Source of the DNA: a virus
Length of the DNA stretch: 22,657 nt
Strand: one strand, 5' to 3'
IMG/VR virus record: IMGVR_UViG_3300014720_000199
Span: 1 to 22,657 of that record
Numbering within the stretch: the first letter of the stretch is position 1; every line of letters starts with the position of its first letter. Under the pieces are notes generated by a model. The model was not told where the DNA came from and did not search any database. It saw only the letters and a program-made list of their open reading frames with translations. The translations under genes were made by a program, and so were the position numbers. Shown piece by piece: positions 1 to 21,840 of this stretch.

Positions 1-1302
1 ATCCTGGCTCCGAACCATGCTCCGCAATCCAACGACATCAACTTCAACTACAAGGACGCTCTCCGTAAGCGTGTCGTGGCCCATGAGTACTGGGGCAACT
101 ACGACATCAACAAGAATGGGGAGCTGGTGCCCATCGTGGCAACCTGGGTTGAGGGCATCCTGGTTCGCCTGGAAGTCAACCCGTTCAAGGACGGCAAGCA
201 CCCGTTCGTCGTGGTTCCCTATATGCCGATCAAGCGGCAGGTCATGGGTGAGCCAGACGCTGAGCTTCTCGAGGACAATCAGAAGGTCCTGGGCGCCATC
301 ATGCGCGGTACGATTGATCTCCTGGGTCGATCGGCGAATGGGCAGCAGGGCTTTGCCAAGGGCATGCTCGACACCCTGAACAAGCGGCGTTTCGAGTCTG
401 GTCAGGACTACGAGTACAACCCGAACTTCACGCCGCAGACAGGCATTGTGGAGCACAAATATCCGGATATCCCACAGTCGGCCATGCTGATGATTGGGCT
501 ACAGAACCAGGAAGCAGAGGCTCTCACGGGTGTGAAAGCTTTTTCTGGTGGCCTGTCCGGAGATGCTTTCGGTGATGTTGCCACCGGCATCAAGGGCGTT
601 CTGGATGCTGCCTCGAAGAGGGAGATGGCGATCCTGCGTCGACTGGCGGCAGGCCTCGTGCTCATCGGCAAGAAGTTCATCTCCATGAACGCCGACCTTC
701 TCTCCGAGGAGGAGGTGGTTGCTGTCACCAACAGCGAATTCATCACCATCCGACGGACCGAGCTGTCCAGCGTGGCCGGCGAATTCGATCTGAAGGTGGA
801 CATTTCGACTGCGGAAATTGACCAGGCGAAATCCCAGGATCTGTCGTTCATGCTCCAGACCATGGGGCCCAAGGTGGATTTTTCGTTCACCCAGATGATC
901 CTGGCTGAGATCGCACGTCTGAAGCGCATGCCGGAACTCGAGCAGAAGCTTCTCTCGTTCAAACCCACACCGGATCCGATGCAGCAGCAGCTCATGCAGC
1001 TCCAGATCATGCGGGAGCAAAAGGAGATCGAGCGCATCGATTCCGAAATCGCACTCAACCAGGCCAAGGCCCAGAAGGAACTGGTTACCGCGGAGCAGGG
1101 TGCGCTGGATACGATTGAGCAGGAAACGGGTACTAAGCACGCTCGCGACATGCAGAAGCAGGTGGCTCAGTCCTCCGGCAACCAGAGTCTCGAGGTGACG
1201 AAGGCTCTGCTGAAGCCCCGCAAACCCGATGAAACCAAGCCAGCTATCGAGGCGGCTGCTGGTTTCAACGAGCTCATCAGATCACGGGATCAGGTAACCT
1301 GA
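1..1302 (+). CDS. Portal protein, C-terminal part (N4 gp59-like), cut by window start
   Basis: The frame is open from base 1 to a TGA at 1300-1302, giving the last 433 residues; the start lies upstream. The portal is the dodecameric ring at one head vertex through which DNA is packaged and ejected and to which the neck attaches. The visible part starts with a block typical of N4-like portals ([10 protein letters not shown], then a [10 protein letters not shown] strand pair and [11 protein letters not shown]). A helical middle follows, and from about visible residue 321 a Gln/Glu/Lys-rich helical tail ([12 protein letters not shown] onward) likely forms a coiled coil or crown. N4 gp59 is about 760 aa from memory, so roughly 330 residues should be missing. 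The position directly upstream of scaffold and capsid genes supports the call. No cysteine is visible. The family call is from recognition, not a search. Confidence 0.9.
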
Positions 1303-1409: not shown

Positions 1410-1748
1410 ATGTCGGATCTTCAGGATCTCCAGCAGGGCATCAAGGATGCCGAAGAGCTCATCGGTCGTCGCAATACGGCGATCAGGTTGTCGACGAACC
1501 CGGACTTCAAGGAACTGTTCCTCGACGGCTACTTCCAGGAAGAGGCAGCTCGCCTGGTTCAGCTTTCGTCCGATCCTGCTCTCGACCCCATGCAGCGTGC
1601 CGACGCTCTGTCGATGGCCCAGGCCACCGGTCATGCCAAGCGCTACCTGTCCATGATGGTGCAGATGGGGGCCCATGCCGAGCGGGAACTCCCGGCCATG
1701 AACGAAGCTCTCGTCGAGCTGATGTCTGAAGCCGACGGAGACGAGTGA
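1410..1748 (+). CDS. Small conserved head-region protein (N4 gp58 position)
   Basis: 112-aa, all-helical-looking acidic protein. The ATG at 1410 has an AGGGA ribosome site at good distance. It begins with a short helix (DLQDLQQGIKDAEELI) followed by a block (NPDFKELFLDGYFQEEAARLV, shown here in pieces: NPDFKELFLDGY, then FQEEAARLV). I associate this pattern with small proteins encoded between portal and scaffold in many podoviruses. No biochemical role is known to me; a head-assembly or packaging accessory is an inference from position. The stop overlaps the start region of the scaffold-like gene (TGA at 1746-1748), so the two are probably translationally coupled. No cysteine, signal peptide or membrane segment. 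The gene is real with high confidence; the function is unknown. Confidence 0.8.
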   Translation: MSDLQDLQQGIKDAEELIGRRNTAIRLSTNPDFKELFLDGYFQEEAARLVQLSSDPALDPMQRADALSMAQATGHAKRYLSMMVQMGAHAERELPAMNEALVELMSEADGDE

Positions 1749-1753
1749 TCACC

Positions 1754-2998
1754 ATGGCCGGCGAAACCTCCACCGAAGACTACTTCGGGATGTCGGACGA
1801 CGACTTCCTGAAGATCAATTCTCCCCCGACGCCGGCCGAGTCGGATGTAGGCCAGCAGGAAACTGCTGGTGCCACTACCACCACGACTGAAGCCGGTACC
1901 AGCATCGAGCAGGGTGAGCAGCACGCTGAGACGGCGTCTGAGGGTGCTGAAAGCACCACCACCACTGATCCCACGACATCCACAGCTGCTGCAGCTGTCG
2001 AGGAAGACGGTGGACCCACCACCGATCGAGTAGAGGCCACCAAGGTAACCGGCGCTGACAAGGACCGGGGAAGTGATGCTTCTACTGGTTCCAAGGACAC
2101 GTCAGCCGCAGACGGCGACAACAAAGACGCTTCGAAGACAGAAGCCGCTGCCGATACGTCGACAGAGACGAAGGTCGACTTCGAGGGCTTCTTCAAGAAG
2201 GTCATGGCTCCGTTCAAGGCGAACGGACGAGAGATCAAGCTCGAGAGTCCGGAAGAAGCAATCCGTCTCATGCAGATGGGCGCCGGATACGGCCGCAAGC
2301 TCCAGGACCTTCAACCGGCGCTGAAGACCCTCCGCATGCTCGAGAAGAACGATCTGCTCGATGAGGGCCGGCTGTCGTTCCTCATCGACATTAATAACAA
2401 AAAGCCCGAGGCGATTAAGAAATTAATCGCTGAGTCGGGTATCGACCCCCTTGAATTGAATATCGGAGATAATGTAACTTACACTCCGACGAACCACTCT
2501 GTCAGTGACAAGGAGATGGCGCTTCATTCGGTTCTCAACGACGTGCAGTCGACTGAGGCCGGCCAGGAGACCATACGAGTTGTCAACCAGACGTGGGACC
2601 AAGAGAGCAAGTCTGTTCTCTGGGAGTCTCCCGAGCTTCTGAATGTCATCAATGCTCAGCGTGAAAATGGGGTCTATGACCGCATCACTGCTGAAGTGGA
2701 ACGACAGAAGCTCCTGGGTCAGATCCCACCGACGACGCCGTTCCTACAAGCCTACAAGCTCGCTGGAGATCATCTCTCCAAGCAGGCAACCCAGAGCTCG
2801 TCGGGAAGCACGACTTCCCAGCAGCCCCAAGTGGTCGCCGTTCGCACAGCAGCTCCGAAGGCCCAGGTTCAGAATGGCGAGAAGGCAGCAGCAGCGGCTT
2901 CCACCAAGACGGTAAGCCAGCGCTCAGCCCACGCAACCGTCAACCCGCTCGAGATGGCGGACGACGATTTTCTGAAAACGTTCAAGGGTCGTCTCTGA
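1754..2998 (+). CDS. Scaffold-like acidic protein (N4 gp57 position)
   Basis: 414 aa from the ATG at 1754. A GTG at 1745 overlapping the previous stop (GTGA) would add three residues. I prefer ATG because GAGTGAT just upstream can pair with the 16S tail, whereas GGAG sits only 4 bases from the GTG; this is not settled. Residues 25-135 are a Thr/Ala/Ser/Glu/Asp-rich low-complexity segment, then comes a helical core (FEGFFKKVMAPFKANG, EEAIRLMQMGAGYGRKLQDL) and a Ser/Gln/Ala-rich tail. The location directly before capsid, acidity and disorder fit an internal scaffold, though some N4-like annotations use other names. M-S-DDDFLK at residues 13-20 recurs as M-A-DDDFLK at 401-408 near the C-terminus. 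Residues around 215-240 are encoded by an AT-rich stretch with unusual codons for this genome (TTA, AAA, ATT) that forms a strong hairpin. Confidence 0.75.
   Translation: MAGETSTEDYFGMSDDDFLKINSPPTPAESDVGQQETAGATTTTTEAGTSIEQGEQHAETASEGAESTTTTDPTTSTAAAAVEEDGGPTTDRVEATKVTGADKDRGSDASTGSKDTSAADGDNKDASKTEAAADTSTETKVDFEGFFKKVMAPFKANGREIKLESPEEAIRLMQMGAGYGRKLQDLQPALKTLRMLEKNDLLDEGRLSFLIDINNKKPEAIKKLIAESGIDPLELNIGDNVTYTPTNHSVSDKEMALHSVLNDVQSTEAGQETIRVVNQTWDQESKSVLWESPELLNVINAQRENGVYDRITAEVERQKLLGQIPPTTPFLQAYKLAGDHLSKQATQSSSGSTTSQQPQVVAVRTAAPKAQVQNGEKAAAAASTKTVSQRSAHATVNPLEMADDDFLKTFKGRL
2405..2439 (+). other. Intragenic hairpin with GAAA tetraloop
   Basis: Within the scaffold-like gene, GCGATTAA (2411-2418) and TTAATCGC (2423-2430) form a perfect 8-bp stem closed by a GAAA tetraloop. 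After an asymmetric internal loop, CCCGA (2405-2409) pairs with TCGGG (2435-2439). No T-run follows, so it is not a standard terminator. Local base composition is much more AT-rich than the flanks. The role is unknown: translational pause, mRNA stability or processing are possible. Confidence 0.55.
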
Positions 2999-3023: not shown

Positions 3024-4226
3024 ATGCTGAACTACAACGCTCCCACCCAGACCAACGCGGGTACCGCGTCGGACATCGACGGATCCGGCTCCGGCCAGAT
3101 GAACACCTTCTTCTGGCTGAAGAAGGCCCTCATCGAGGCACGCAAGGAGCAGTACTTCATGCCCCTCGCCAGCGCCGTCAACATGCCCAAGCACTATGGC
3201 AAGACCATCAAGGTCTTCGAGTATGTTCCGCTCCTCGACGAGCGCAACATCAATGACCAGGGCATCGACGCTTCGGGCGCCACGATCAGCGACGGCAATC
3301 TGTACGGTTCGTCCAAGGACATCGGCACCATCACCAGCAAGCTTCCGGTTCTGACCGAGAACGGCGGTCGTGTGAACCGTGTCGGCTTCACTCGTATCTC
3401 CCGTGAAGGCTCCCTGAGCAAGTTCGGCTTCTTCACCGAGTTCACGGCCGAGTCGATGGACTTCGACTCCGACGACATGCTGATGGATCACCTGAGCCGC
3501 GAGCTCATGAACGGCGCCGTCCAGATCACCGAGGCCATCCTCCAGAAGGATCTGCTGACCAATGCCGGCGTCATCCTGTACGCTGGTGAGGCCACCACGA
3601 ACGGCACCATCACTGGTGAAGGCGCGGATCCGTCGGTCGTGACGTATGCCGATCTCCAGCGCATGGATCAGCTGCTCACGGACAACCGCACCCCGAAGCA
3701 GACCAAGATCATCACCGGCTCCCGTCTGGTCGACACCAAGACCCTCCCGGCCGCTCGTGTGATGTTCATTGGTTCGGAACTGACTCCCCTGGTGAAGGGC
3801 CTCGAGGACACCTTCGGCAATCCGGCCTTCATCCCGGTTCAGCAGTACGGTGACGCCGGCACGATCCTGAACGGCGAGATCGGCACCGTCGATGCTTTCC
3901 GTATCGTGCAGGTCCCCGAGATGCTGCACTGGGCTGGCGTCGGTGCTGGCGAAACCGTGGCCAATCTGGGCTACCGTGCGACCAGCGACCACTACGACGT
4001 GTTCCCCATGCTGGTCGTCGGCGACGACTCGTTCTCGACGATCGGCTTCCAGACCGATGGCAAGACCGTAAAGTTCTCGGTCATGACCAAGATGCCTGGC
4101 AAGGAGACCGCCGATCGCAACGATCCGTATGGCGAGACCGGGTTCAGCTCGATCAAGTGGTACTACGGTATCCTGATCAAGCGTCCCGAGCGCATCGGCC
4201 TCATCAAGACCGTCGCACCGATCTGA
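3024..4226 (+). CDS. Major capsid protein (N4 gp56-like)
   Basis: 400 aa, close to the length of N4 gp56. It is the HK97-fold subunit of the icosahedral shell. The start [11 protein letters not shown], followed by [17 protein letters not shown] and [14 protein letters not shown], is characteristic of N4-like capsid proteins as I know them. The N-terminal part contacts scaffold; the middle ([15 protein letters not shown]) matches the long spine-helix and E-loop region expected of this fold; the C-terminus ([15 protein letters not shown]) ends in the usual axial beta segment. No cysteine was seen. The ribosome site is weak (TGGGGA about 11 bases upstream) for such an abundant protein, so expression may depend on the promoter or on coupling. 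A strong intrinsic terminator follows directly, as expected for a highly expressed unit. Codon use is strongly biased to C/G third positions. Confidence 0.95.
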
Positions 4227-8206: not shown

Positions 8207-10321
8207 ATGGCTCCGCTTACCTGGCGTGAAGTTTCAGCCCCCAACTTCTCCGGTGTAGCGGAGTCGCAGCGCCTTGCCGGCCAGATGCTGAGCAACGGCT
8301 TCCAGAGCTCCATCGATGCACTGGGCCGCCTCAATGACAGCCAGAAAGCTGCTGCCAACGGTGAGTTCCTGTCCAGGATCTCAGGCTTCACCGATGCCCC
8401 GGCATTTCGGAATGCGCTGCAGAACGGGACGATCTTCGATGGATTGGACCGATCGGCGATCACTCCTGAGACCTTTGACCGCGCCAATGCCCATGCGGCA
8501 GCCCTGCTCAAAGATGTGCAGACTGGCGTGGTCACCGATGGGCAACGGCTCAACAACCAGAACCAGTCACTGCAGAACGACCAGCTGGCCTGGAACAACG
8601 ACAAGACTCGCTCTTTCGAAGCTGGTAGGCCTGCAGCCGTCGATCTGGTGAACCAGATCAAAAATTATGCTGCGCTGGGAACTCCTGAAGGTCGAGCCAA
8701 GGCCGAGGAACTCACTCGAGGCGGTTCCAAGGTGCTCGCTGACTCCGGCTTCACTACTGACATGATGACCCAGCTGGTCAACGGAAACCTCGACACTACC
8801 ACAAAGGGTATCAGGACCAACACTGATCTACGGGATCAGGGTGATGCTGTTCGAGCCCATGAGATCCAGATGTCGGCCCAGACGCTCTACAATGAGGCGC
8901 TGCGCTCGACGGGCAACGACGTGGCTCTTGCCGAGCGTATGATCCGTGAAAGCAGCCAGCTCAATCCCCAGGTGGCGCAGCAGGCGCTTGCTCTTCTTGG
9001 TTCCGACCAGGCGAAGCTGCTTCAGGGTCCGGACACGAATGCCGCATCCTACATGCTGCAACAGACCGTCGACGCACGGACTGGTGGACCGAGCCGCGGC
9101 CTCATCGGACTGATCGATCGCACTGAAGGGAATGGCGACTATCGCACTCTCTTTGGGCACTCTCAGCGTCCGGGTGGGGCATTTGAGGGCGTGGACATCA
9201 CCCAGATGACCCTCGCCCAGCTGGATGATTTCGACAAGGAATACGGCAGCTGGGTCAATGGAGAGATCGGCCGAGTCACCACTCCTGGTGGCAGGTTTCA
9301 GATCGTTGGAACAACTCGCCGCCAGGTGGCTGATGAGATGGGTCTGCCGAGTGACACGGTCTTCTCGAAGGAGGTGCAGGACGCAATGTTCTACCATCTC
9401 GTCGACAAGCGCATCTCTGGACCGCGGTCCATGGAGGCGAAGATGCGTGGGCTTCGCCAGGAGTGGGAGGGTTTCAAGAACGTCTCGGACAAGGATCTCA
9501 GCGCAGCGATTACGGCCTACCAGAACGGTGACGCCGGAGCACTGGGTGGTATCACTGGGGCAGTTTCCGGACAGACCAATGGACCGGCTCTTTCTGAGGG
9601 CCAGAAGCTCTTCGAGTCGGCCCTGAATTCTTCGTCCAAGCTCAACCAGGCTCAGAACCAGGCCCTGTTCCAAGGGACCGTGGAGGTGGCAAACCAGGCT
9701 GCCTCGGTCATGGACGCTATGCGAGTGGATAGTATCTGGGGCACGACGGCGCTTGCCGAGTCTCTGCTCGATGAGTCGCTGGCAACCGAGAGCCAGACAG
9801 CCAGCCTTGCGAAGCTGCGCTCTGCTATGGGCCCGGACGTTGACCTTAAGGATCCGGAGCTCACGGACAACATCAACGCCATCAAGGACAAGTACGGCAT
9901 GTCCTTTGGGCAGGCAGCAACTGTCGTTGCGAACTCCTTGCACCAGGAGCCGTGGATCCTTCGCTGGCTCCAGGGACAGACGAATGTCGACTACAACCGG
10001 TTCGATGAGCTGGTTGGGCAGGTCTACAACAAGGACGGCAAGACCCGAGGTGACAAGTTCCGTCCGGCTATGGAACTGCTCGAGAACTCCCGAAGCAAGC
10101 AGAACGCGGCCACCCAGCTCACCAACATGCAGGGGATGGTGGATCAGGCACAGCAGCGCTATGTGAACCTGCTCGCCCGGGTACGCACCAACGCCACGCC
10201 GGCCCTCGAGAGGGAACTTCAGCGAGCCCAGCTCGAGTACCAGACGCTTCTCGGGCAGATGAAGAAGACCGTGTCGACGATCGACAGTGACCCGAGGGTC
10301 GGCTTCCGATCTGGGGGTTAA
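8207..10321 (+). CDS. Internal virion protein with lysozyme-like lytic domain (N4 gp51 position)
   Basis: 704 aa; AGGA lies about 7 bases before the ATG. The N-terminal 290 residues are helical and Gln/Asn/Ala-rich. A compact lysozyme-like domain follows at about 295-430: GLIDRTEGNGDYRTLFGH contains the likely catalytic Glu307, and GGRFQIVGTTR (Gly362-Arg363-Phe364-Gln365), then FSKEVQDAMFYHLVDKRI match the order seen in phage lambda R-type lytic transglycosylases and related muramidases (SEG..., GRYQ, SQDA). Such domains open the peptidoglycan locally so that DNA and ejected proteins can pass. Residues 440-704 are long helices with coiled-coil potential (ALERELQRAQLEYQTLLGQM at the end). No cysteine was found in 704 residues. 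It lies between the gp14-like protein and the giant polymerase, preceded by a GATAATC element. The enzyme class (lyase or hydrolase) is uncertain. Confidence 0.78.
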   Translation: MAPLTWREVSAPNFSGVAESQRLAGQMLSNGFQSSIDALGRLNDSQKAAANGEFLSRISGFTDAPAFRNALQNGTIFDGLDRSAITPETFDRANAHAAALLKDVQTGVVTDGQRLNNQNQSLQNDQLAWNNDKTRSFEAGRPAAVDLVNQIKNYAALGTPEGRAKAEELTRGGSKVLADSGFTTDMMTQLVNGNLDTTTKGIRTNTDLRDQGDAVRAHEIQMSAQTLYNEALRSTGNDVALAERMIRESSQLNPQVAQQALALLGSDQAKLLQGPDTNAASYMLQQTVDARTGGPSRGLIGLIDRTEGNGDYRTLFGHSQRPGGAFEGVDITQMTLAQLDDFDKEYGSWVNGEIGRVTTPGGRFQIVGTTRRQVADEMGLPSDTVFSKEVQDAMFYHLVDKRISGPRSMEAKMRGLRQEWEGFKNVSDKDLSAAITAYQNGDAGALGGITGAVSGQTNGPALSEGQKLFESALNSSSKLNQAQNQALFQGTVEVANQAASVMDAMRVDSIWGTTALAESLLDESLATESQTASLAKLRSAMGPDVDLKDPELTDNINAIKDKYGMSFGQAATVVANSLHQEPWILRWLQGQTNVDYNRFDELVGQVYNKDGKTRGDKFRPAMELLENSRSKQNAATQLTNMQGMVDQAQQRYVNLLARVRTNATPALERELQRAQLEYQTLLGQMKKTVSTIDSDPRVGFRSGG

Positions 10322-10372: not shown

Positions 10373-10404
10373 ATGTGGGGGGAGAAATACCTCCCACATT
10401 TTCT
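10373..10404 (+). terminator. Terminator-like hairpin before the virion RNA polymerase gene
   Basis: ATGTGGGGGG (10373-10382) pairs with CCTCCCACAT (10390-10399), 10 bp with one G-T pair, around a 7-base loop, followed by TTTT (10399-10402) and CTATT. It fits a modest intrinsic terminator or attenuator between the lytic-domain gene and the giant gene. An in-frame ATG at 10373 is inside the stem and has no ribosome site, so it is an unlikely start. Confidence 0.7.
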
Positions 10405-10423
10405 ATTGGAACCAGAGCTGACA

Positions 10424-13400
10424 ATGGCTGAGTTCAACCTCCTCGATCCCACGACCTGGCCGTCTGTGAATGAGCCGAAGACGGGCCCGAAGTTCACCAA
10501 TGCCGTGATCAATGGTGTGGAGGATCCTGGACTGCCGATGCCGGGCACTGTGGCCCCAGGTGCTCAGGCTCCAGCTCAGCTTTCTGCGGATGCACAGCTG
10601 AAGCTCGATCTGGCTCAGATCGACACAGCCCTCCGCAATCCCGATGCACTGGCGGCCCTGTCGCTCTCTGAGCAGCGTGGCAATGGCCTGACAGCGGGCA
10701 ACAAGCTTCTCGACGACTACGAGGCCCTGACGCCTGTTCAGTTCCAGCAGAAATATGGGCTCGACACCTACCGTACTCTGGTGGCCAAAGGCATCAGGTC
10801 CAGGAAGTTCCTGTCGACAACCACTCCTGAGAGGGACCTGCTAACCCATGCTGCAGATGCAGCTGTGAGCGCGGCTGATGGGGCAAATCAAGCACTGATC
10901 GGCCTGGCCAATGCCGGTATTCATGTTGGTCTGTCGGATGGGCCGATCAAGGATGCGGCACTCGATTGGACAGCCAACCTGTCTGAAGATGCTACCAATC
11001 GTGCATCACGCCTGAGCAGCGATGCCCTGAACCAGAGGACATACGTCGACTCCATCAGAACCGCACTGGATCAGATGGACAACCAGGCCTTGTCTGAGTC
11101 GGACAAGTCGAACGACAAGAACTTCATCGACAACCTGGCCAGCCATGGTCGGGAGTTTCTCCGCGACAGCGGGTATGGGGCCAAGCGCCTTATCGAAGAC
11201 CCTGAGATGCTTCTCAATATGTCCGAGCAGGGGGTCGGTTCTCTCGTTACTGGTGGTCTGGTGGCAAAGACGGCTGGTGCCGTTGCCAATGCTGGAAAGG
11301 TACTGACTCCGTCAGCTCGTCAGCTGATGGATGAAGCGTCTTCGAAGACCGCTTTTGCCCCGACAATCGGCGGCATGGAGGGGGGTGGGGCTTCGATCCA
11401 GGCTCAGCAGGCTGTCATGAACATGCCTGAAGCCGAGCTGATGGAGAGCCCCAAGTATCGAGAACTGCTCCAGAACGGCTTCTCGGCCCACGAAGCGCGT
11501 CTTCAACTGGCGGCAGATGCGGGTATCGTCGCCATGGTTCCTGCAGCTGCAGTTGGTGTCCTGACCGGCAAGTTGGTCGAGGGTATCGAACTTGCCCCAC
11601 TGGCTCGAACGAATGTAGGTGGTCTCCTTGCGAACGCTGGCAAGGAGTCTCTTGAGGAGGGTGTGCAATCTGCAGCTGGTCAGGTTGCCAGCAATTTGGG
11701 TGTTCAGGTTTCCGGAGCAAATCCGGATCAGAACCTCGGTGAAGGGGCTGGTGGCAGCTTCGTTCAAGGTGCGGCTGCAGGTGCCGGCACGACTGCCCTG
11801 ATGCAGGGTCCTGGTGTAGCCCTTGATGCTGCTGGAAAGACCGCGGTAGCAGCAGCCAAGGCTTCTGTTCCTCTGGCTATTGGTACGGCTCAACTGGCAG
11901 GGCAGGGACTCGTGGCCACCACCAAATTGGCAGGGGTGGCGTTGCGACCCTTGATCAAGGTCGGAGAGCAACGCCAGGAGGCTGTTGCAGCCGAGTCAAC
12001 GGTCTCTCCTGAAAAGATGGCACCGGCTATCCAGGATGCTGTTGTCTCCGCCCCCGTTGTAGCAGACGGTCTGCGGGCAATGGCAGCCGAAGTTGGGGCC
12101 ACTGGTGCAGACGTCGAGAGCTATATCTCTGATGTCCAGAAAGCCGCCCAGCTCCAGGAAGCCGATCTTGCATACATGCCGGACGTCGTGGGCACCCAGA
12201 TTGCCGATGCTCGAGAGCAGCTCGGTCGGGTTCCGAACAAATTCGAAGCCCTGAACATTGCCGGCGGTGTTGTGATCAATCCGGATAGCTCGGAACAGGA
12301 TCGGGTGGCGGCAGCCACGTTCATCCTCAAGAGCATCCAGGAAAATCGTAACCTGTTTCAGGAGGAGCTGCCGAAGTTCCTCCAGAAGGTTCCGCAAGAT
12401 CGTCCCGAATTCCAGGAGTTTAACGCCTACGCCAATCTTCTGAGCGCGATCGAGCAAACCCCCAAGGTCCGCGATGCGATCAAGTGGGCACAGGAGAAGA
12501 TGCAGCAGCCGGATGCTACTGGTCCGCTTGATCCGAAGATTGTGGCGCAGACTGTGCAGCTGGCAGCTGTTGCTCCGCAGGCCGTTAACGCCAATATCGC
12601 CGATCAGATCCTCAATCAGTCTGGCAGTACTACCGAAACGCTGACTCCTGAGCAGCGCCGGATCCTGCAGGGCGCCCGAAACCTGAAGAAGGCCGGAGAG
12701 ACATACGCAGAGCAGCTCGGTGAGGCTGACAAGCTGGACTTCATCGACAAACAGATCCGCCTCGATGGTGGGTCCAAGAGGCATCAGCTTTCCCTGGCTC
12801 AGCATGCGCAGCAGATCGCCGCGGCGCAGACATCCGGTAATCCGGAGCGCATCAAGGCCAGTGTTCAGAAGCTGAACCGGTTTGCCCTCTCACACCGCAA
12901 CAAGGTGGCGGCTCTCAACCGCTCCATCAAGACCGGTGATCAGGATGTGAAGTATCGAGCGGCGGACGCCGAGGGCAAGAGCTACATGACTCCCAAGGGG
13001 GTGGGTGTTCGTGTTGGCAATGCTGGCCAGGAACGCTTTGCGCGCACTGTTCATGCGGAGGCCACCGCCATTGCGGAAATGGCCAACAACTTCGCTCAGC
13101 TCTATCCTGAGCTTGGTTTGCCGCAGGTTCAGGTACCTGAGCTGCTCCTCGATCGGGCGCTTGAGGTGAACCAGCCCCAGTCAAGCCAGGTAACTGAAAA
13201 AGAGGGACGCTCGGATACTGCCAGCAAGAAGCAGGAGCCGACGACATCCCAGGCTACCACGACCAGGACTGACGGTGCTTCCGAACAGCAGGAGCGTCCC
13301 TCTCAGGATCCCGCACCACAGACAACCGCGGATGCGGGAAAGCCGGCTGGAGATAACCAGTCGACGATTATGGGTGAAATCGAAAAGCTCAATGAACGCC

Positions 13401-16400
13401 TGTACCAGAGCGATGCCAACGATCTGGATACTCGTGATGCGCTGAAGCGTGAGATCGAGGGTCTGAAGGACCAGCTCGAAGCACTGAGTGAAACAGTCTC
13501 TGAGGTGTCAGAGGCTGTGAAGCCTGTTTCTGTGGAGCCCACTCGAGTTGAGCCAGTGCCTGAGCCGACCCTGGAGCAAGCAGAGCTTCTCTTGGATCAG
13601 GAGTCTGATATCGGGCAGGTGCCGGCCATCGAGACCGAATATCCTCTCCTGGTTCAGATCCAGGGCAAGAACATCTTCCATCGGGCCTTCAAGCTGCCTC
13701 GCCGTCAGAAATCCCGACTGATGCGTCTGCGTACCCCACTCGAGGAGCTGATCGAAGCTCTCTCGAGTAGTCAGGGCCTGATAGACTTTCTTGGCGGTCT
13801 CGAGAGAAGCAATGCTCTTCGGTACGACATCGGATCCGAGGATAGAACCAACCTGCAGCAATTGCTGGACATCGGGCAGCTCGTGCGGGCGGAGATGCGT
13901 AAGCGTCTCGTTACCGTACTGACCGGGAAACAGAAGGCCAACAAGGATGGGGTGGCACAGCCGTCATACCTCGAGCGCCTGAAGAACAATGATCCTATCA
14001 TGCTGGGGGCTCGCTTCCGGGCACTCGGGATCCTCGAGAAAACCGAGACCAGTTATCGGTACAACCAGCAGCTCGTCGAAGCTGCCATTGTGGCCGGCTT
14101 GGACTGGGCCATGAATGCCAATACCCGCAGCACTCCGCCGACCCGTGAGCAGGTTGCTGAAATGCTCGAGATCCAGGATGCGGATGAGGTCTCCGAAACC
14201 CTTCGCAAGAAGTTCGAAGATGGTATTTCGCTGGATACCGCGGTCCGCTCCATGGCGGAAAGCATCATGCGGTTCTGGGGCGTGGATCCGAACAAGGACA
14301 CTGACGACGCATACGTGAAGGGAATTCCTGAAGCGATCGCCAAGGAGGTACTCCACAGCCTGGAGAGCGTTGGTCTTGTTCGGCTGGATACCTGGACCTT
14401 CCCGGAATTCACGAAGAAGAACTTCGGGCGTGTCTTCTTCGACAAGCGTCCCGAGAACGTGGACACCTTGGTCAGGAGCCTGCACGGTGTTCACGACGCT
14501 CTGGCCGACATGGCCATGATCGAGAAAGAGGTGCAGGGATACCAGATTGGGGCTCCGATCCAGGAAGTCGATCAGACCCAGTTGCACAATCCGATGGTCA
14601 AGCTGACCTCACAGCAGACCCAGGCTTTGCGCGCTACCCAGGCAACACCGCATTATCCGAACATGCCGATGTTCGATTTCTTCATGTCCCTGGGACGTGA
14701 GCAGTTTGTCACGCTCTTCAGCGGACATCCCTACACGGATGGTGATCTCAAAAAGGATCACACCGAGGTGGGCTTGAACAAGGGTCATTGGGCCTCGGTG
14801 CAGGGTCTGCAGCGCAGCCTGGTGATGTCGTTCGACAACATCGGTAAGCAGATGAAGGCTGTTCGGCAGCACGCCAAGGGCTCATTCAATCCTCTGGATC
14901 CGAACAGTCGGCCGATCGGTGTCGAGCAGGTGCCTACCTTCTATCGTCACCACATCAACAAGCTCGGTCGTCCTCAAATGGACGGGGCCAGCAATCCTCA
15001 GTCCGACAAGGCCGCTCGAGAAGTCTATATGCCGACCCGGTCAGTGTTGAACCTGGTTCAACAAGACGGGTCTGATTTTGCCAAGTTCCTGCTGACGATC
15101 GGCCAGGCTATCGGGATGAAGACCGAAAAGGCCAACCGTCCTGGTGTGGTCAAGGGTGGGCGTCAGGTCATCGGAGAGGCGGTCATCCAGGAAACCATGA
15201 CCGCGGGCGGTAAATATCGCCCAATGGTTGAAACCCTCAAGATCTGGCTGAGCTCCAGGAACCAGAAGTCGGATACCCCCCTTCCTGTCGAGGCGGTCGA
15301 GGAACTGGCCCGTCTGCAATCTGACAAGAAGACCAAGCTGACCTTCGCCGGTATCCATGGGCTGATCAACGTGGCTCGGTATGAGCTGGCTCGAGAGAAC
15401 AACCAGGATCTGAGCAAGTTCGAGTCGTTCGGATATCTGGAAGCCGACGGCAAGACCAACGGCATGATCAATGCGCTGATGCTCTATGGCATCGGTGAGA
15501 TTGTTCCGTCCTGGCTCCGAGCGATTGCCAAGGGTGGTGCATTCTTCGGCCGTGAAGGCAAGACGCTCAACGATCATATGGTTGAGGACCCCAAGGATCT
15601 GTATCAGGAAGGCGCGGAGAAGACTGACGGTAACGTCGCTACTCTCGGTCGATCCATTGCGCTCAGCAATGCACCGGCACACGATCTCTTCCAGGCGTTC
15701 CGGAGAGTTCTTGCTGCCCTGAGTGTTGATGTATCGCTCGACCCGTCGAGTGGCGACATCACGATCAGCCGTGGGCTGACCAAGAACCCCATGACGATCA
15801 CGATCTACGGATCGGGCTCAAATGGTATTGCCGGCAACGTGGCGGATGACCTGATCGGGGTGCTCTACGAGACTCTGTCGGCATCCATGGAAAGTGGTAC
15901 GCCGGCTGGAGAGCTGCTTTATGGTCCTGGTGGTAGCCAGGCGCTCATGGCTGACCTACAGTCCCTGACCTCCTATGTCGCTCGCAAGAACGACAATGGT
16001 GAGTGGTACACGATGGGGAACAGCATCCCGATCGAGGGCAGCGCTGCAGATTTCGAGCTGACCCAGCTGCAGAAAAAGAACCTGATCGGGAACCTGAACA
16101 CGTTCCTGGTTCAGCCCATGGTTTCGGCCATCGAAGAGACGCTGATGAAGCATGTCAGCGCAGTTGCTGATGCAGCTCAGCAGGCCACCCAGGTCCAGTC
16201 CATCATCCTCAAGGGTATGTTCATTGACAAGGTGACCCAGAGGTTGGCCATGAAGCAGGCGGATCCGGAGAAGTATGGCTACCGCAAGGGTGATTACCTG
16301 TCCAAGCAGGAACAGGAGGATATTCTCAATAATCTCTCGGCATTTTCTCCGATAATCGAGACCGGCACTCAGGGGTACTTCCTGGCCGGCGGAGAGAAGT

Positions 16401-19400
16401 CCGATCTCTTTGAGAAAACCACGATCACGGTTGGCACAGAGACCTACACGGTGTCGTTCCCGGAGAACTTCTCGAGGTCGCTCACGGATGACCTGAGCAC
16501 GTCAGCGTTCGCCTATGGCCCGACCCTGTCCGGGGTGAAGGCCAAGCCGACGCTTGTGATCGGATCCGGGGATGGGCAGATGATGCTCAATTTCCTGTCG
16601 GAGAACGTCAACGGATCGGCGAACCGTGTCGAGCACATCTTCGATGGCCTACATATGCCGACGGATGCGATCGACGAATACTCCCAGCAGATCAACCAGT
16701 CGGTCTTCAAAACCTGGACCGAGAACGCCAATCCTGTACGGGCAGCGTATGAAAGCTTCGCCAAGTTCATGGCCCGTAATCCGATCAAGGCCCTTTTCGG
16801 ATCGGACAACCTGACCCCACAGCAGGAGAACGCTCGTCTCGAGCTAGCCCGGGTGTACCACGACCGGTTCAAGGTCTCCGAGAACGAGATCCCCAGCCTC
16901 GAGGACATGCAGATCTTTGCGGAAAGTCTCCTGGCTGGGATGAAGGACCTGGCGGACAGCACTGATGCACGCAGGCTTACCTATGCCGAGTTCATGCTGT
17001 CGGTGGATCAGATGGCGAGCGGTGAGAACCCCTACGTCAATCCTGGCTCCATCCAGCTGGCTCCTAATGCCGACCCTGAAGTGGTAGCGGATGCGATGAC
17101 CAGCAGGTATCGAGTTCACCTGGCCAAGATCCGCGGGCAGGTACTCAGCCCGCCGGTAACTGCAGCTGTTCAGGTTGTCGGCACTGTGGAGGAAACGGGT
17201 GCGACTGTGATGTCAGTCGACAACCTTCCGTCGATGCTCAAGAACCTCGAGGCCAAACTCTCCCCGACCCAGAAGGAGATGATGCGCCATGTCGGCAAGC
17301 TCCTGAAGGGATCAGGATACCGTCTCGTCTTCGGTTCGACCCGTCAGTTGGATGCCTGGGAGCAGGCCAACAATGCGGATCGTTTCGTTCCTGGTTCCAA
17401 TAGCCAGAACGGCAAGATCGATCCGGTAGCAAAGGTCATCCTGATCTCGAATATGGAAAGCGAGACTGTGATCCATGAGCTGGTTCACGCGGCCACCATT
17501 GACAAGGTGCGGGCATTCTACTCGAACCCGTCTTCTCTTTCGAAAGAGGAGAGGGCGGCGATCGAGCGTATCGAAGGACTGATGGGAGAGTGGTTGACCC
17601 AGGATCCGAACAAGGAGAACAGCAGCGGCTACGAAGCTCGGCGCCTGGCTGAGGCTGAGATCTCTCGTCGGCTCTCGAAAGGGCAGAAAGCCGAAGCGGT
17701 CAACGAGTTCATGGCCTGGGTACTGGGCAATCAGGATCTTGCTGCCCTGGCTCAGAAGACCAAGGTCAAGAACACGGCTTGGCGGATCGTCGGAGATGCT
17801 CTGGCAGCGCTCAAGACCTTGATCTGGGGTGCTCCGAACAAAGGACCCCGTGTCGGGGACTCACTCTTGTCGAACCTCAGGTTCAACACCCGTGTGTTGA
17901 TCAACGGCCCGACTCAGCTGGAAAGTCTGCAGCAGGATGCCAATGCTGTGGCGATGTACCAGTCCAAGGCGTTTGGATCGAATGATCGCTTGTCGACCAT
18001 TCGTCAGCGCCTCAATAGCCGGATCACTTCCTGGCTCGAGGGAGATGGTTCTGCGCTCAGCAAGGTGACGCGCCCGACCCGTACTGTGGCGGATATGAAG
18101 AACCGTGCACTGACTGGGCAGATCACTTCTCAGTTTGCCTTCCACTTCCCCGATCTGAAGTCGATGCAGGCTGCCAGCACGTTCGCCTCGATCCAGCGAG
18201 CTCTGATGACTGAGATCGAGCTCAATCCAAATGCGTTGTCGCGTATGGAGGATCTGTACGCCCATGTCGTCGGGCAGCTGAAATACACCGACTTCATGGA
18301 CGATGCGGACCAGGTGCCTCCTGATCCGAATGATGAAAAGCAGGCCCGTGACAAGCTCGATCTGGTACTTGGCAAGTTCGGGACCACGATCGATGCCTTT
18401 GGCCGGTCATCCCTGATGTCGTCATTTCTGGCCCTGTCCATGACCAGCGAGGAATTCCGCGGTATCCTGTCGAAATTCGACAAGCCGAAGTGGGACAAGA
18501 GCAGCTCGAGCGGGCTGGATGGTCTTGTCGAGAACGTCGCAATGGCCTCGGTGGATCGTCTCTCCATCCTTCTGTCTGGTGAGAAGGGTAGGGGCGCCAA
18601 CGTTCAGGAGGCCCTGGATCGTCTGATGCTCTCCATGATCGAGAACGTTGGCGACCAGAGGACCTATATCGAGCGGTTTGGAGAAAGCCAGCTCGACAAG
18701 GTTGAAGCGTATCTCTCGAACCAGCTGCAGGAAACCAGTGCTGCTGTTGCGGAGAAATCCGCAGAGGTGGTTCGCAACACGAAGAACCGGGCAGTGAAGG
18801 TCGGAGCCACGTTTGTTGGTGCGGTGGCAACCGCCATCAATGAGCAGAAGTCCACCGAGGCAGCTTTGGGTTTGATCTCCCAGCTCAACAAGATCGACGG
18901 ATGGAACCCGATCAAGGAGCTCATTGCGGATCTCGTTGGGCGAACCAGGGAGAATGCCCCGATCTTCGATATGATCTCCAAGGTCAGGGCTACCGTACAG
19001 CAGGTCCGACAGCAGTTCCGGGATGAACTCCCCTTGAAGCTGAACAGTGCCTTCACCAAAGCGGTGAGCGCTGAGCAGTGGTCTGCGATGTACAGGGCCT
19101 TGGGCAAGACCGATCTGGCTGCGATCAGTCGGGTCTATGGTCTTGATGGGGCCCTGAAGATGCTGACGGATAGCACCTCCCGTACCGCGGAGATCCGTAA
19201 GCTCGAGAGTTCCTTCGATAAGAGGATCCTCGATAAGGCTCGGCAGCTCGCTCACTTCATGGTGTCTGGGGAGCATGGCTCTGAGCTGCTTCGAAATGCC
19301 TATGCGATCGCAGCGCTATCGGTACCGGGCATCCGCAATATGAACCCGACCCAGGAAATGGTCGATGAAGTAGACCGCCTGGTGACGCTCTATGCGATCA

Positions 19401-21319
19401 ATGAGACCGATGCTGGATCCCTGGCCGCGGTGGCGGAGCTGATCGACAATGGGGAAAAGCCTGGTGTCGAGTTTGTCACCAGCTACCTGATGGGCCAACG
19501 CACCGATGAGATGGCCAAGACCCAGATGACATCGTGGGCTCGGGTCAACCATTACAAGGGACATCTGCCGGCGGAGGCGCAGAACGAAGGATCTCTCGTC
19601 ATCGTGTCAGATGGAGAGCATGCCCAGATGGTCAGCCGCGGATACACCCGGGTTGGTGCCTACTCTGGATCCTCGGCTGATCGATCTGTGGGCAAGCGAA
19701 GCTATTACTTCGCACCTGTGTCAGGTCGTGCGGTGTTCAACCAGGGCGTGCTGCAGACGGTACATCAGACGGCTTCTGGCGTGGATCCTGAGACTGGGTT
19801 CACTGTCGGTGAGCCTATGGCTGGGCGGATCGAAGATCCGCAGATGGTGAGGCTGATCCAGAGGATGCTGGTGAACCAGTCCAACACTGACGAAAATCTG
19901 CTGCCGGTATATGATGGCAACGGTAGGGTGGTGGCCTTTGAACGTGCCGCGGATCCCCGCATGCTCTCCAAGCTGGATCGCTCTTCGGACCTGGCTGCGA
20001 TGATCGGTGTCTGGCGTGGTCGTCAGGCTGAGGAGCTGCTGGCCCAGGAAGTGAACCACCAGCTGATCGACAAACTGCACGGTATCTGGGTCGAGGGAAA
20101 AGCAGCTGGCCGTGAACGAGAATTCGTGAACATCGCCAAGCTGGATCCCAAGACTGACGACAAGGTGCTGATCGAAGCAGTGAGCCTTATCCCCGACCAG
20201 GCCCAGGCCTATATCGAGCAAGTCTTCGGGCCTGGAGTGATGATGGTGCGTCGTGACATGCTTCTCGACACATTCGGAGCACGGCAAGCTTCAGTAGGTG
20301 ACCTGTTCACTGGTCAGACGCGGTGGAACCCCAAGATTGCAAACGACATGGAGAAGCTCGCGACAGCTGTCTTCAACAGGGACGCTTTCAAGACCCTGGT
20401 CGGATCTGAGCGAAATATCCAGGAAGTTGTCGCGGGGGTGAAGCAGATGATCGTAGTTCGATCGGTGATCGTTCCTGCGGCCAACATGCTTTCGAACATG
20501 TTCCAGCTGATGAGCCGCGGAGTGCCGGTCAGGGCCATCCTCCATGGGGTAGGCGCCAAGACAACGGAGATAAGCTCCTATGTGAAGCGTCGGCAGCGTG
20601 AGATCGACCTCGAGGCTGATCTACGAGCTGCAGAAGGGCGTAACGACTCAGGTGCTTCCCTCAAGATCTCGAACCAGATCCAGGCGATCCAGGACAGCTA
20701 CAGACGCATGTCGATCTGGCCGTTGATCGAGGCTGGTGAGTTCTCGGCCATCTCGAGTGGTCAGGTTACCGCGGAGGACCTGGCTATATCGGATGGAAAG
20801 TGGAGCACCTTCATCGAGCGCAAGATCAGTGCACTCAGTGAGCCGTTAAGGACGGCTGCCAGGTATGGCTTGGTGACCAGGGACACGGCCCTATTCCAGG
20901 GCCTCGCTCGTGCGGTCCAGTACGGTGATTTCGTCGCCAAGGCGGTACTCTATGATGACCTGACCAGTCGTAAAAAGTCGTCGAAGGAGGGCGCCATTGC
21001 TACCGTGAATGAGGCGTTCGTAAACTACAACCGTCTCGCGGGTCGCAGCCGTCAGTACCTCGAGAGCATTGGTCTGCTCTGGTTCTACAACTACAAGTTG
21101 CGCATCATGAAGGAGGCGGCTTACCTGCTGCGTCATAACCCGCTGAGGGCTTTGCTTGCTGTCTCGGTGCCGTCGTTACCAATGATCGGGGACATCGGTA
21201 CACCAGTGAGCGATAACATCGTCGGGATCCTGAACGATGGGAAGCTCGGCTACTCGATCGGGCCCGGCATGGGTATCGGTAGCTGGCAGCTCAACCCCTG
21301 GATCAACCTGGCTCGTTGA
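10424..21319 (+). CDS. Giant virion RNA polymerase, N4 gp50-like, with metallopeptidase-like module
   Basis: 3631 aa from the ATG at 10424, close to the about 3500 of N4 vRNAP. The family is a single-subunit T7-type RNA polymerase packaged in the head and injected to transcribe early genes. Order of parts: helical N-terminus with Gly/Ala-rich apolar stretches (about 268-512); disordered linker and coiled coil (about 923-1065); polymerase domain (about 1090-2250); zincin-like module (about 2265-2470); helical C-terminal region to 3631. Polymerase motifs: INKLGRPQMDG (TxxGR type, Arg1516), EADGKTNGM (motif A, Asp1675), SRGLTKNPMTITIYGSG (motif B, Arg1783, Lys1787, Tyr1795), HIFDGLHM (motif C, Asp2074). 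Spacings A-B of 112 and B-C of 287 compare with 111 and 281 recalled for N4 mini-vRNAP. Metallopeptidase motif: HELVH 2351-2355 with Glu2428 in NEFMAW. No cysteine found. The start has a weak ribosome site (GAG, 6-base gap) behind a terminator-like hairpin, fitting few copies per virion. Confidence 0.95.
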   Translation: MAEFNLLDPTTWPSVNEPKTGPKFTNAVINGVEDPGLPMPGTVAPGAQAPAQLSADAQLKLDLAQIDTALRNPDALAALSLSEQRGNGLTAGNKLLDDYEALTPVQFQQKYGLDTYRTLVAKGIRSRKFLSTTTPERDLLTHAADAAVSAADGANQALIGLANAGIHVGLSDGPIKDAALDWTANLSEDATNRASRLSSDALNQRTYVDSIRTALDQMDNQALSESDKSNDKNFIDNLASHGREFLRDSGYGAKRLIEDPEMLLNMSEQGVGSLVTGGLVAKTAGAVANAGKVLTPSARQLMDEASSKTAFAPTIGGMEGGGASIQAQQAVMNMPEAELMESPKYRELLQNGFSAHEARLQLAADAGIVAMVPAAAVGVLTGKLVEGIELAPLARTNVGGLLANAGKESLEEGVQSAAGQVASNLGVQVSGANPDQNLGEGAGGSFVQGAAAGAGTTALMQGPGVALDAAGKTAVAAAKASVPLAIGTAQLAGQGLVATTKLAGVALRPLIKVGEQRQEAVAAESTVSPEKMAPAIQDAVVSAPVVADGLRAMAAEVGATGADVESYISDVQKAAQLQEADLAYMPDVVGTQIADAREQLGRVPNKFEALNIAGGVVINPDSSEQDRVAAATFILKSIQENRNLFQEELPKFLQKVPQDRPEFQEFNAYANLLSAIEQTPKVRDAIKWAQEKMQQPDATGPLDPKIVAQTVQLAAVAPQAVNANIADQILNQSGSTTETLTPEQRRILQGARNLKKAGETYAEQLGEADKLDFIDKQIRLDGGSKRHQLSLAQHAQQIAAAQTSGNPERIKASVQKLNRFALSHRNKVAALNRSIKTGDQDVKYRAADAEGKSYMTPKGVGVRVGNAGQERFARTVHAEATAIAEMANNFAQLYPELGLPQVQVPELLLDRALEVNQPQSSQVTEKEGRSDTASKKQEPTTSQATTTRTDGASEQQERPSQDPAPQTTADAGKPAGDNQSTIMGEIEKLNERLYQSDANDLDTRDALKREIEGLKDQLEALSETVSEVSEAVKPVSVEPTRVEPVPEPTLEQAELLLDQESDIGQVPAIETEYPLLVQIQGKNIFHRAFKLPRRQKSRLMRLRTPLEELIEALSSSQGLIDFLGGLERSNALRYDIGSEDRTNLQQLLDIGQLVRAEMRKRLVTVLTGKQKANKDGVAQPSYLERLKNNDPIMLGARFRALGILEKTETSYRYNQQLVEAAIVAGLDWAMNANTRSTPPTREQVAEMLEIQDADEVSETLRKKFEDGISLDTAVRSMAESIMRFWGVDPNKDTDDAYVKGIPEAIAKEVLHSLESVGLVRLDTWTFPEFTKKNFGRVFFDKRPENVDTLVRSLHGVHDALADMAMIEKEVQGYQIGAPIQEVDQTQLHNPMVKLTSQQTQALRATQATPHYPNMPMFDFFMSLGREQFVTLFSGHPYTDGDLKKDHTEVGLNKGHWASVQGLQRSLVMSFDNIGKQMKAVRQHAKGSFNPLDPNSRPIGVEQVPTFYRHHINKLGRPQMDGASNPQSDKAAREVYMPTRSVLNLVQQDGSDFAKFLLTIGQAIGMKTEKANRPGVVKGGRQVIGEAVIQETMTAGGKYRPMVETLKIWLSSRNQKSDTPLPVEAVEELARLQSDKKTKLTFAGIHGLINVARYELARENNQDLSKFESFGYLEADGKTNGMINALMLYGIGEIVPSWLRAIAKGGAFFGREGKTLNDHMVEDPKDLYQEGAEKTDGNVATLGRSIALSNAPAHDLFQAFRRVLAALSVDVSLDPSSGDITISRGLTKNPMTITIYGSGSNGIAGNVADDLIGVLYETLSASMESGTPAGELLYGPGGSQALMADLQSLTSYVARKNDNGEWYTMGNSIPIEGSAADFELTQLQKKNLIGNLNTFLVQPMVSAIEETLMKHVSAVADAAQQATQVQSIILKGMFIDKVTQRLAMKQADPEKYGYRKGDYLSKQEQEDILNNLSAFSPIIETGTQGYFLAGGEKSDLFEKTTITVGTETYTVSFPENFSRSLTDDLSTSAFAYGPTLSGVKAKPTLVIGSGDGQMMLNFLSENVNGSANRVEHIFDGLHMPTDAIDEYSQQINQSVFKTWTENANPVRAAYESFAKFMARNPIKALFGSDNLTPQQENARLELARVYHDRFKVSENEIPSLEDMQIFAESLLAGMKDLADSTDARRLTYAEFMLSVDQMASGENPYVNPGSIQLAPNADPEVVADAMTSRYRVHLAKIRGQVLSPPVTAAVQVVGTVEETGATVMSVDNLPSMLKNLEAKLSPTQKEMMRHVGKLLKGSGYRLVFGSTRQLDAWEQANNADRFVPGSNSQNGKIDPVAKVILISNMESETVIHELVHAATIDKVRAFYSNPSSLSKEERAAIERIEGLMGEWLTQDPNKENSSGYEARRLAEAEISRRLSKGQKAEAVNEFMAWVLGNQDLAALAQKTKVKNTAWRIVGDALAALKTLIWGAPNKGPRVGDSLLSNLRFNTRVLINGPTQLESLQQDANAVAMYQSKAFGSNDRLSTIRQRLNSRITSWLEGDGSALSKVTRPTRTVADMKNRALTGQITSQFAFHFPDLKSMQAASTFASIQRALMTEIELNPNALSRMEDLYAHVVGQLKYTDFMDDADQVPPDPNDEKQARDKLDLVLGKFGTTIDAFGRSSLMSSFLALSMTSEEFRGILSKFDKPKWDKSSSSGLDGLVENVAMASVDRLSILLSGEKGRGANVQEALDRLMLSMIENVGDQRTYIERFGESQLDKVEAYLSNQLQETSAAVAEKSAEVVRNTKNRAVKVGATFVGAVATAINEQKSTEAALGLISQLNKIDGWNPIKELIADLVGRTRENAPIFDMISKVRATVQQVRQQFRDELPLKLNSAFTKAVSAEQWSAMYRALGKTDLAAISRVYGLDGALKMLTDSTSRTAEIRKLESSFDKRILDKARQLAHFMVSGEHGSELLRNAYAIAALSVPGIRNMNPTQEMVDEVDRLVTLYAINETDAGSLAAVAELIDNGEKPGVEFVTSYLMGQRTDEMAKTQMTSWARVNHYKGHLPAEAQNEGSLVIVSDGEHAQMVSRGYTRVGAYSGSSADRSVGKRSYYFAPVSGRAVFNQGVLQTVHQTASGVDPETGFTVGEPMAGRIEDPQMVRLIQRMLVNQSNTDENLLPVYDGNGRVVAFERAADPRMLSKLDRSSDLAAMIGVWRGRQAEELLAQEVNHQLIDKLHGIWVEGKAAGREREFVNIAKLDPKTDDKVLIEAVSLIPDQAQAYIEQVFGPGVMMVRRDMLLDTFGARQASVGDLFTGQTRWNPKIANDMEKLATAVFNRDAFKTLVGSERNIQEVVAGVKQMIVVRSVIVPAANMLSNMFQLMSRGVPVRAILHGVGAKTTEISSYVKRRQREIDLEADLRAAEGRNDSGASLKISNQIQAIQDSYRRMSIWPLIEAGEFSAISSGQVTAEDLAISDGKWSTFIERKISALSEPLRTAARYGLVTRDTALFQGLARAVQYGDFVAKAVLYDDLTSRKKSSKEGAIATVNEAFVNYNRLAGRSRQYLESIGLLWFYNYKLRIMKEAAYLLRHNPLRALLAVSVPSLPMIGDIGTPVSDNIVGILNDGKLGYSIGPGMGIGSWQLNPWINLAR

Positions 21320-21373: not shown

Positions 21374-21571
21374 ATGTCGATGTTGAAGCAGATCATGACC
21401 GGGGTCTTTATTTTCTTGGCCTTTGGGGTTGTTTTGACACTGGATAAGCCTGATGCAGGTGGCAAAGTAGTCAGCTCCCTGGCCAGGATGTCCCCTATCA
21501 TCCTGATCGTCCTAGTGCTCTATTTGGTGGTGAGCGGGGTCAGGAAGATACTCAAGCGCCTCCAAGGTTAG
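21374..21571 (+). CDS. Small two-helix membrane protein (holin-like shape)
   Basis: 65 aa from the ATG at 21374, with GGGGA 8 bases upstream. ATGs at 21359 (adds five residues, lies in a hairpin loop) and 21380 (two fewer) are alternatives in frame. Two apolar segments, about residues 7-23 (IMTGVFIFLAFGVVLTL) and 41-55 (PIILIVLVLYLVVSG), are joined by a short loop with a DKPDAGGK turn, and a basic tail ends the chain (VRKILKRLQG). This is the shape of class II holins, but also of many unrelated small phage membrane proteins. N4 has a small gene (gp49) in this place, downstream of vRNAP. No lysin gene is adjacent, which weakens the holin idea. Its stop codon overlaps the stop of the opposing minus-strand gene (shared bases 21568-21571). 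Confidence 0.6.
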   Translation: MSMLKQIMTGVFIFLAFGVVLTLDKPDAGGKVVSSLARMSPIILIVLVLYLVVSGVRKILKRLQG

Positions 21572-21584
21572 CCATCGGCTAGCC
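21566..21584. other. Hairpin at the convergent late/early gene junction
   Basis: GGTTAGCC (21566-21573) and GGCTAGCC (21577-21584) form an 8-bp stem with one wobble pair around a 3-base loop (ATC). It spans both overlapping stop codons of the convergent genes. Neither strand has a T-run after it, so it is not a clear intrinsic terminator, but no other terminator candidate separates the two convergent units. Confidence 0.45.
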
Positions 21585-21840
21585 CCAGCACGCAATAACC
21601 CGGCTCGATGCCGAATTGCCCGCCTTGCAGCAGGTACGTGATCCGCTTGCGAAGTTTCACGGCGCTGAACATGCCCGGCTCTGTGATGTAGTAGCGCCCC
21701 TCGTCGTCGTCCCACTTCTCAAGGATGAGGATATCCCCGGTCTGGAACGCGCGATCATTCTTTCGCACCTCGAACGTCTTTCGACCGTCGGCCACGGCAT
21801 CCCAGTACCGCGCCAGAGTCTTCAGCGTGTGTTCACTCAT
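21568..21840 (-). CDS. DUF3850 / ASCH-PUA-like domain protein
   Basis: 90 aa; ATG at 21840 with GGAGG 6 bases upstream. The sequence follows the DUF3850 pattern closely: HTLKTLARYWDAVADGRKTFEVRKNDRAFQ (in pieces: LKTLARYWDAV, GRKTFEVRKNDR), then FQTGDILILEKWD, and ending IEPGYCVLGL. The family is a small beta-barrel related to ASCH and PUA domains, which are RNA- or nucleotide-binding folds; its role in phages is not established to my knowledge. It spans the whole protein, so it looks complete. It is the last gene of a minus-strand group with overlapping starts and stops, and its stop overlaps that of the opposing late gene. Likely part of the early/middle accessory region. Confidence 0.85.
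   Translation of the reverse strand: MSEHTLKTLARYWDAVADGRKTFEVRKNDRAFQTGDILILEKWDDDEGRYYITEPGMFSAVKLRKRITYLLQGGQFGIEPGYCVLGLADG

Follow-up and report, generated by a model that had tools for sequence, protein, structure and literature searches.

We analyzed a stretch of 22,657 bases from a virus record, a fragment of an N4-like phage referred to here as the window. It contains most of a head gene module and the gene for a virion RNA polymerase, and the genes that concern us are the following.

76..1302 (+): portal protein of the N4 gp59 family, truncated at the start of the window to its C-terminal part (PHROG 1216; Pfam SU10_portal)
1410..1748 (+): gp58 homologue, 112 aa, function unknown (PHROG 2346)
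1754..2998 (+): N4 gp57 homologue, 414 aa, probable scaffolding protein (PHROG 2120; synteny)
3024..4226 (+): major capsid protein of the N4 gp56 family (PHROG 1357, E 8e-138)
10373-21319: virion RNA polymerase, 3648 aa, with a polymerase domain that matches N4 (E 4e-106)

The genes follow the order portal (cut), gp58, gp57, major capsid protein, gp55, gp54, gp53, more virion genes and the polymerase, and the order portal-gp58-gp57-major capsid protein recurs in the annotated relatives that we fetched. The capsid protein resembles solved Schitoviridae capsid proteins, for example 9e99 and 9bgn. The gp57 homologue matches the PHROG 2120 profile over its full length (E 1.7e-118, residues 4-411 of 414), and its position between gp58 and the major capsid protein, with a virion RNA polymerase in the same window, places it within Schitoviridae. 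It is an ordinary member of PHROG 2120, with approximately 32-59% identity to the aligned relatives. Mechanical antisense ORFs that overlap the gp57 gene were left aside.

Three further ORFs merit mention. The gp58 homologue (1410-1748, + strand) is a possible assembly partner of gp57, and small ORFs occupy the corresponding gap in SU10 and AD45-P2 as well. A 704-aa virion protein (8207-10321, + strand) matches PHROG 6126 and 14527, has no Pfam match and may be an ejection protein, judging by its position. A 90-aa ORF on the opposite strand (21568-21840, - strand) adjoins the late virion genes and matches Pfam DUF3850 (E 5.5e-26) and ASCH.

Terminal motifs and predicted architecture of gp57

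The 414-aa ORF translates as the sequence-only reading had claimed, with two octapeptides, at residues 13-20 and 401-408, that are identical at seven of eight positions. The gp57 gene can be divided as follows.

1790..1813 (+): N-terminal copy, MSDDDFLK, residues 13-20; predicted short helix at residues 15-21; D15 invariant in 63 sequences
1814..2167 (+): acidic arm rich in Thr/Ala/Glu, residues 21-138, predicted disordered, net charge about -18; AF2 pLDDT mostly about 40-53
2168..2803 (+): folded core, residues 139-350, a beta hairpin (PFKANGREIKL) and helices; AF2 pLDDT about 90-98 in most blocks
2804..2953 (+): mildly basic arm of low AF2 confidence, residues 351-400
2954..2977 (+): C-terminal copy, MADDDFLK, residues 401-408, preceded by a conserved NPLE; predicted helix at residues 403-408; D403 invariant in 63 sequences

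The pattern [DE][DE][DE]F[LIM][KR] has no further match in a six-frame scan of the window. On shuffling the terminal 60-residue segments, an end-to-end match of 7/8 arose once in 2000 trials, and in none of 1000 in a second run. Scored with a family profile, the N copy reaches 30.0 bits and the C copy 25.2; the runner-up within gp57 scores -6.2, and 1000 composition shuffles never exceeded 15.2 bits. Elsewhere in the window, the highest-scoring site is LSMTSEEFRG at polymerase residue 2690 (about nt 18434-18463, + strand; 9.3 bits), a likely chance occurrence in a protein of 3648 aa.

The two copies are unusually alike in the window protein, whereas N4 gp57 has MSDEEILN and MSDEDFMK. A scan for exact identity between the ends found the copies of the window protein and missed those of N4 and AD45, so we used profiles across the family. 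In DNA the two copies agree at 20 of 24 positions and share the same codon at four of eight. It had been argued that differing codons speak against a recent duplication and for a motif kept at the protein level. The second part is upheld by the relatives; the codons alone are insufficient for the first, since half are the same. Recent duplication is instead excluded by the presence of both copies throughout the family and mostly also in a far outgroup.

An AF2 model from 63 sequences places short helices at exactly the two motifs (block pLDDT 79 and 83), while the arms around them are of low confidence and the core is confidently predicted. The model bears out the earlier description of a disordered acidic segment and a helical core, and an acidic N-terminal arm with a basic C-terminal arm was found in all 76 proteins measured. 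A Foldseek search of the gp57 model against the PDB returned no match at E <= 0.001, an absence that does not argue for a different fold, and the BFVD matches at the same threshold apparently belong to the gp57 family or lie close to it.

Retention and coordinated change of the two copies

Homologues of gp57 were gathered from viral contigs and annotated phages, giving 96 distinct sequences, of which the 92 complete ones were used, and 86 representatives after clustering at 75% identity. A profile built from the N-terminal sites alone, scanned with the first 60 residues excluded, found its best match within the last 35 residues in 86/86. The reciprocal profile from C-terminal sites alone, with the last 60 residues excluded, found its best match within the first 40 residues in 85/86. 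Exactly two motif sites (at least 8 bits) are present in 78 of the 86 representatives, and the site is weak at one or both ends in five (LUZ7, AD45-P2, mv51A6, L093 and ZC08). The 63-sequence alignment has 19 invariant columns, among them D15 and D403, the Asp that follows the Ser/Ala of each copy. Relatives that keep only one copy at random, which would have spoken against a paired role, were not the pattern found: nearly all 86 representatives retain both. Judged from these sequences, the two-ended motif is a trait of the gp57 family, and we consider it very probable that both copies are functional elements.

S-x-x-E with flanking hydrophobic residues is a common helix-capping pattern, and the gp57 motif is consistent with a helix start that has a hydrophobic staple and a capping box. 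At the N- and C-terminal ends, respectively, the residue before the cap is M/L/I/V/F in 83/86 and 83/86, the cap is S/T/D/N in 84/86 and 74/86, N3 is acidic or Gln in 83/86 and 82/86, and N4 is hydrophobic in 86/86 at both. The conserved block of the C copy, NPLxMSDEEFxK....R[L/V], is longer than that of the N copy. A tblastn search with the 21-residue N-terminal motif segment alone, too short a query, gave no match. Two homologues (L062 and L089) carry a third motif-like site in the N-terminal arm, at about residues 88-98 of gp57 (VNQTDEEFEK and LGASDDDLES).

We also compared the copies within and between proteins, using 43 phylogenetically independent pairs taken from a tree of the core only. 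The N and C segments of one protein resemble each other more closely than segments swapped between proteins do (mean D 5.5, p = 0.002; 27 pairs positive, 13 negative), and no effect was seen at ten other registers (shifts of -5 to +5 except 0). By part, the coordination is strongest in the upstream positions -4 to -1 (p = 0.001) and weaker in the octamer (p = 0.037), with p = 0.12 downstream; when the top five pairs are removed, the overall p rises to 0.03. In a random re-pairing control, the identical pairing came out every time, which left the control uninformative. We weigh the coordination as moderate support for one kind of binding site, and with the cross-recognition of the profiles it suggests that the N and C copies bind alike.

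The far outgroup surrounds Alteromonas AD45-P2. These homologues were searched from the single AD45-P2 protein, and the four long records searched from AD45-P2 and related contigs span 92-123 kb. The AD45-like gp57s share about 20-25% identity with divergent Schitoviridae gp57s, while the capsid and portal proteins are about 31% and 43% identical to those of the window. Most AD45-like gp57s have forms of ...DLWDMSDEELEAAFKEA at the N-terminal end and DYLDDSDEAFDEWYKKL at the C-terminal end, and cross-scans succeed in 20/28 and 19/28. A virion RNA polymerase domain gave no match in the AD45-P2-like phages, although the window domain matches N4 at E 4e-106; extreme divergence is conceivable. Since the two-ended gp57 is mostly kept where the polymerase is not detectable, the motif appears to follow the module of portal, capsid protein and gp57 rather than the polymerase.

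The N copy is degenerate in several AD45-like lineages and the C copy near-invariant, and the C copy thus looks the more constrained of the two. Seven AD45-like proteins (L173, L181, L183, L186, L187, L189 and L191) have a degenerate N copy, for example IDPEMERIWRE, and keep the C copy in modified form, for example DYLDDNDEDFDAWYKK; they offer a natural experiment for one-ended function. Coordinated change within the AD45-like group is unsupported by profile correlations: over all positions, the AD45-like N profile correlates at 0.47 with the Schitoviridae C profile versus 0.39 with its own C profile, and only positions -2, +5 and +9 agree.

Assignment of gp57 as scaffold or tape measure

A search with the gp57 gene matches 469 phage records, nearly all apparently Schitoviridae, and many of these name the product 'tail length tape measure protein'. 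We favor a scaffold over a tape measure on the grounds of gene position, predicted structure and absence from most reported virion lists. The gene lies between those for the portal and the major capsid protein, as expected of a scaffold; in the annotated loci its neighbors are portal and capsid genes and not the tail genes expected around a tape measure. The AF2 model and the arm charges describe a mostly helical protein with flexible charged arms, which is likewise expected of a scaffold.

Published virion proteomics bears on the same question. The virion list of RPP1/RLP1 includes homologues of N4 gp52, 54, 56, 59 and 67, and gp57 is missing (PMC4193335). The Moo19/B2 lists include the capsid protein (gp73/gp36) and the portal (gp76/gp39) and none of the genes between (PMC11654681), which, by gene order, would be gp57 and gp58. 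In KP8, the gp57 homologue is annotated without a mass spectrometry value while the capsid protein and portal have one, and the authors caution that their detection of structural proteins may be incomplete (PMC6950046). The ZC03 list does include the gp57 homologue, among 65 of 85 ORFs detected, thymidylate synthase included (PMC11619397). Taken together, these lists favor a scaffold, short of proof.

A real tail tape measure, attached to both ends of the tail by its terminal motifs, would account for the detection in ZC03 particles and for the name carried by PHROG 2120 and many GenBank records. These phages, however, are podoviruses, the gene is flanked by those for portal and capsid protein, and the gp57 homologue is missing from most virion protein lists. 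The DEV virion paper, which never uses the term 'tape measure', describes a tail made of portal, adaptor, tail tube and gp72. We therefore regard a tape measure as very unlikely, and the name as probably wrong and spread by annotation transfer. The scaffold-like character noted at first is thus supported by synteny, predicted fold and published virion proteomics, and we consider it highly likely that gp57 is the head scaffolding protein. If true, this identifies the scaffold of the N4-like phage family and corrects the 'tape measure' label of many records. Our searches of the open-access literature brought up no paper that describes the motif or names gp57 as a scaffold.

Candidate docking partners and known scaffolds

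Helix-forming peptides on flexible arms, paired conservation and inheritance with the capsid and portal genes are best explained by docking peptides. We propose, as an evenly balanced judgment, that gp57 is a scaffold with an equivalent docking peptide at each end, the coat protein being the most likely target, so that one molecule could bridge two subunits. Its narrower form, in which each gp57 would bring two equivalent coat-docking peptides and act as a flexible crosslinker between coat subunits, is put forward somewhat more tentatively. Each end would be one docking peptide with the consensus [hydrophobic]-x-[M/L]-S-D-[E/D]-[E/D]-[F/I/L]-[L/M/A]-[K/N], forming a short helix with a hydrophobic residue before it, a Ser N-cap, an acidic N3 and an aromatic N4. 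This helix would sit at the tip of a flexible arm, long and acidic at the N-terminal end, shorter and basic at the C-terminal end. Both copies would bind the same kind of site during procapsid assembly, in all likelihood one that the major capsid protein exposes on its inner face, such that one gp57 subunit may grip a pair of coat subunits, or one of the coat and one of the portal. The helical core would associate inside the shell, and the scaffold would depart before or during DNA packaging. We take the major capsid protein as the most likely partner because it is abundant and repeated; the portal is a possible second partner.

The ends may instead bind different partners, the C copy the coat and the N copy the portal (or gp58), so that the scaffold would link a portal-nucleated start to the shell. 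The longer conserved block of the C copy and the degeneration of the N copy alone in several AD45-like lineages point this way, as does the P22 scaffold, which touches both portal and coat (PMC12005531). The in-register coordinated change and the cross-recognition in 86/86 and 85/86, however, favor the same kind of site at both ends, and we consider different partners unlikely. Another arrangement would have one or both ends dock on the core of a neighboring gp57 to build a scaffold lattice. The gp57 core is well conserved and scaffolds do oligomerize, as P22 trimers and tetramers illustrate, but P22 multimerizes through folded domains and keeps its C-terminal end for the coat (PMC12005531). 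Our data give no hint of a groove on the gp57 core that would take the motif, and such self-association seems to us a doubtful prospect, a shade less probable than different partners.

Two further readings carry little weight. The motifs could serve to load the head with internal cargo, either the virion RNA polymerase or ejection proteins; N4-like phages do package a giant RNA polymerase, and one is present in the window, but the AD45-P2-like phages mostly have a two-ended gp57 without a match to the polymerase domain, extreme divergence again being conceivable. Recruitment of cargo is thus highly improbable. Least credible of all is a generic helix-start sequence, frequent by chance in acidic proteins and without shared function. 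Patterns of S-x-x-E with flanking hydrophobics are indeed common, but the other proteins of the window have no comparable site except the polymerase match, the gp57 sites stand at 30 and 25 bits against a shuffled maximum of 15.2, the Asp is invariant at both ends, and cross-profile recognition among the 86 representatives contradicts it. Two equivalent peptides that dock on the coat protein remain our preferred reading. If true, it defines a short motif relevant to the scaffold's control over the geometry of a T=9 shell.

We compared gp57 to known scaffolds. T7 gp9 is similar in its gene position between portal and capsid protein and in its acidic N-terminal and basic C-terminal parts, but it has no family-motif site above 2.1 bits and no repeated terminal segment, and comparison with the gp57 profile detected no relationship in sequence. 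SU10 (Kuravirus) shares the order portal, small ORF, scaffold, capsid protein and a scaffold with an acidic N-terminal and a basic C-terminal part; the motif, however, is at neither end (best site 6.5 bits, residue 276), and the SU10 scaffold has no significant match to the gp57 profile. P22 gp8 is, like gp57, a separate, helical and flexible scaffold protein, and a terminal element contacts the coat; it differs in that a single C-terminal U-shaped hook (helix-turn-helix) makes this contact, and the coat-binding regions of the scaffolds compared with it are all C-terminal (PMC12005531). The D3/HK97 scaffold domains and the 80alpha and phi29 scaffolds resemble our proposal in that a short terminal stretch of the scaffold attaches to the coat on its inner face, but each has one contacting end, C-terminal in 80alpha and P22, N-terminal in phi29 and a fused domain in HK97 and D3 (PMC12749128). 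Since the scaffolds in these two studies touch the coat by one end, the N4-like scaffold would be a two-ended variant, and this would suggest that bivalency helps to set the spacing of coat subunits.
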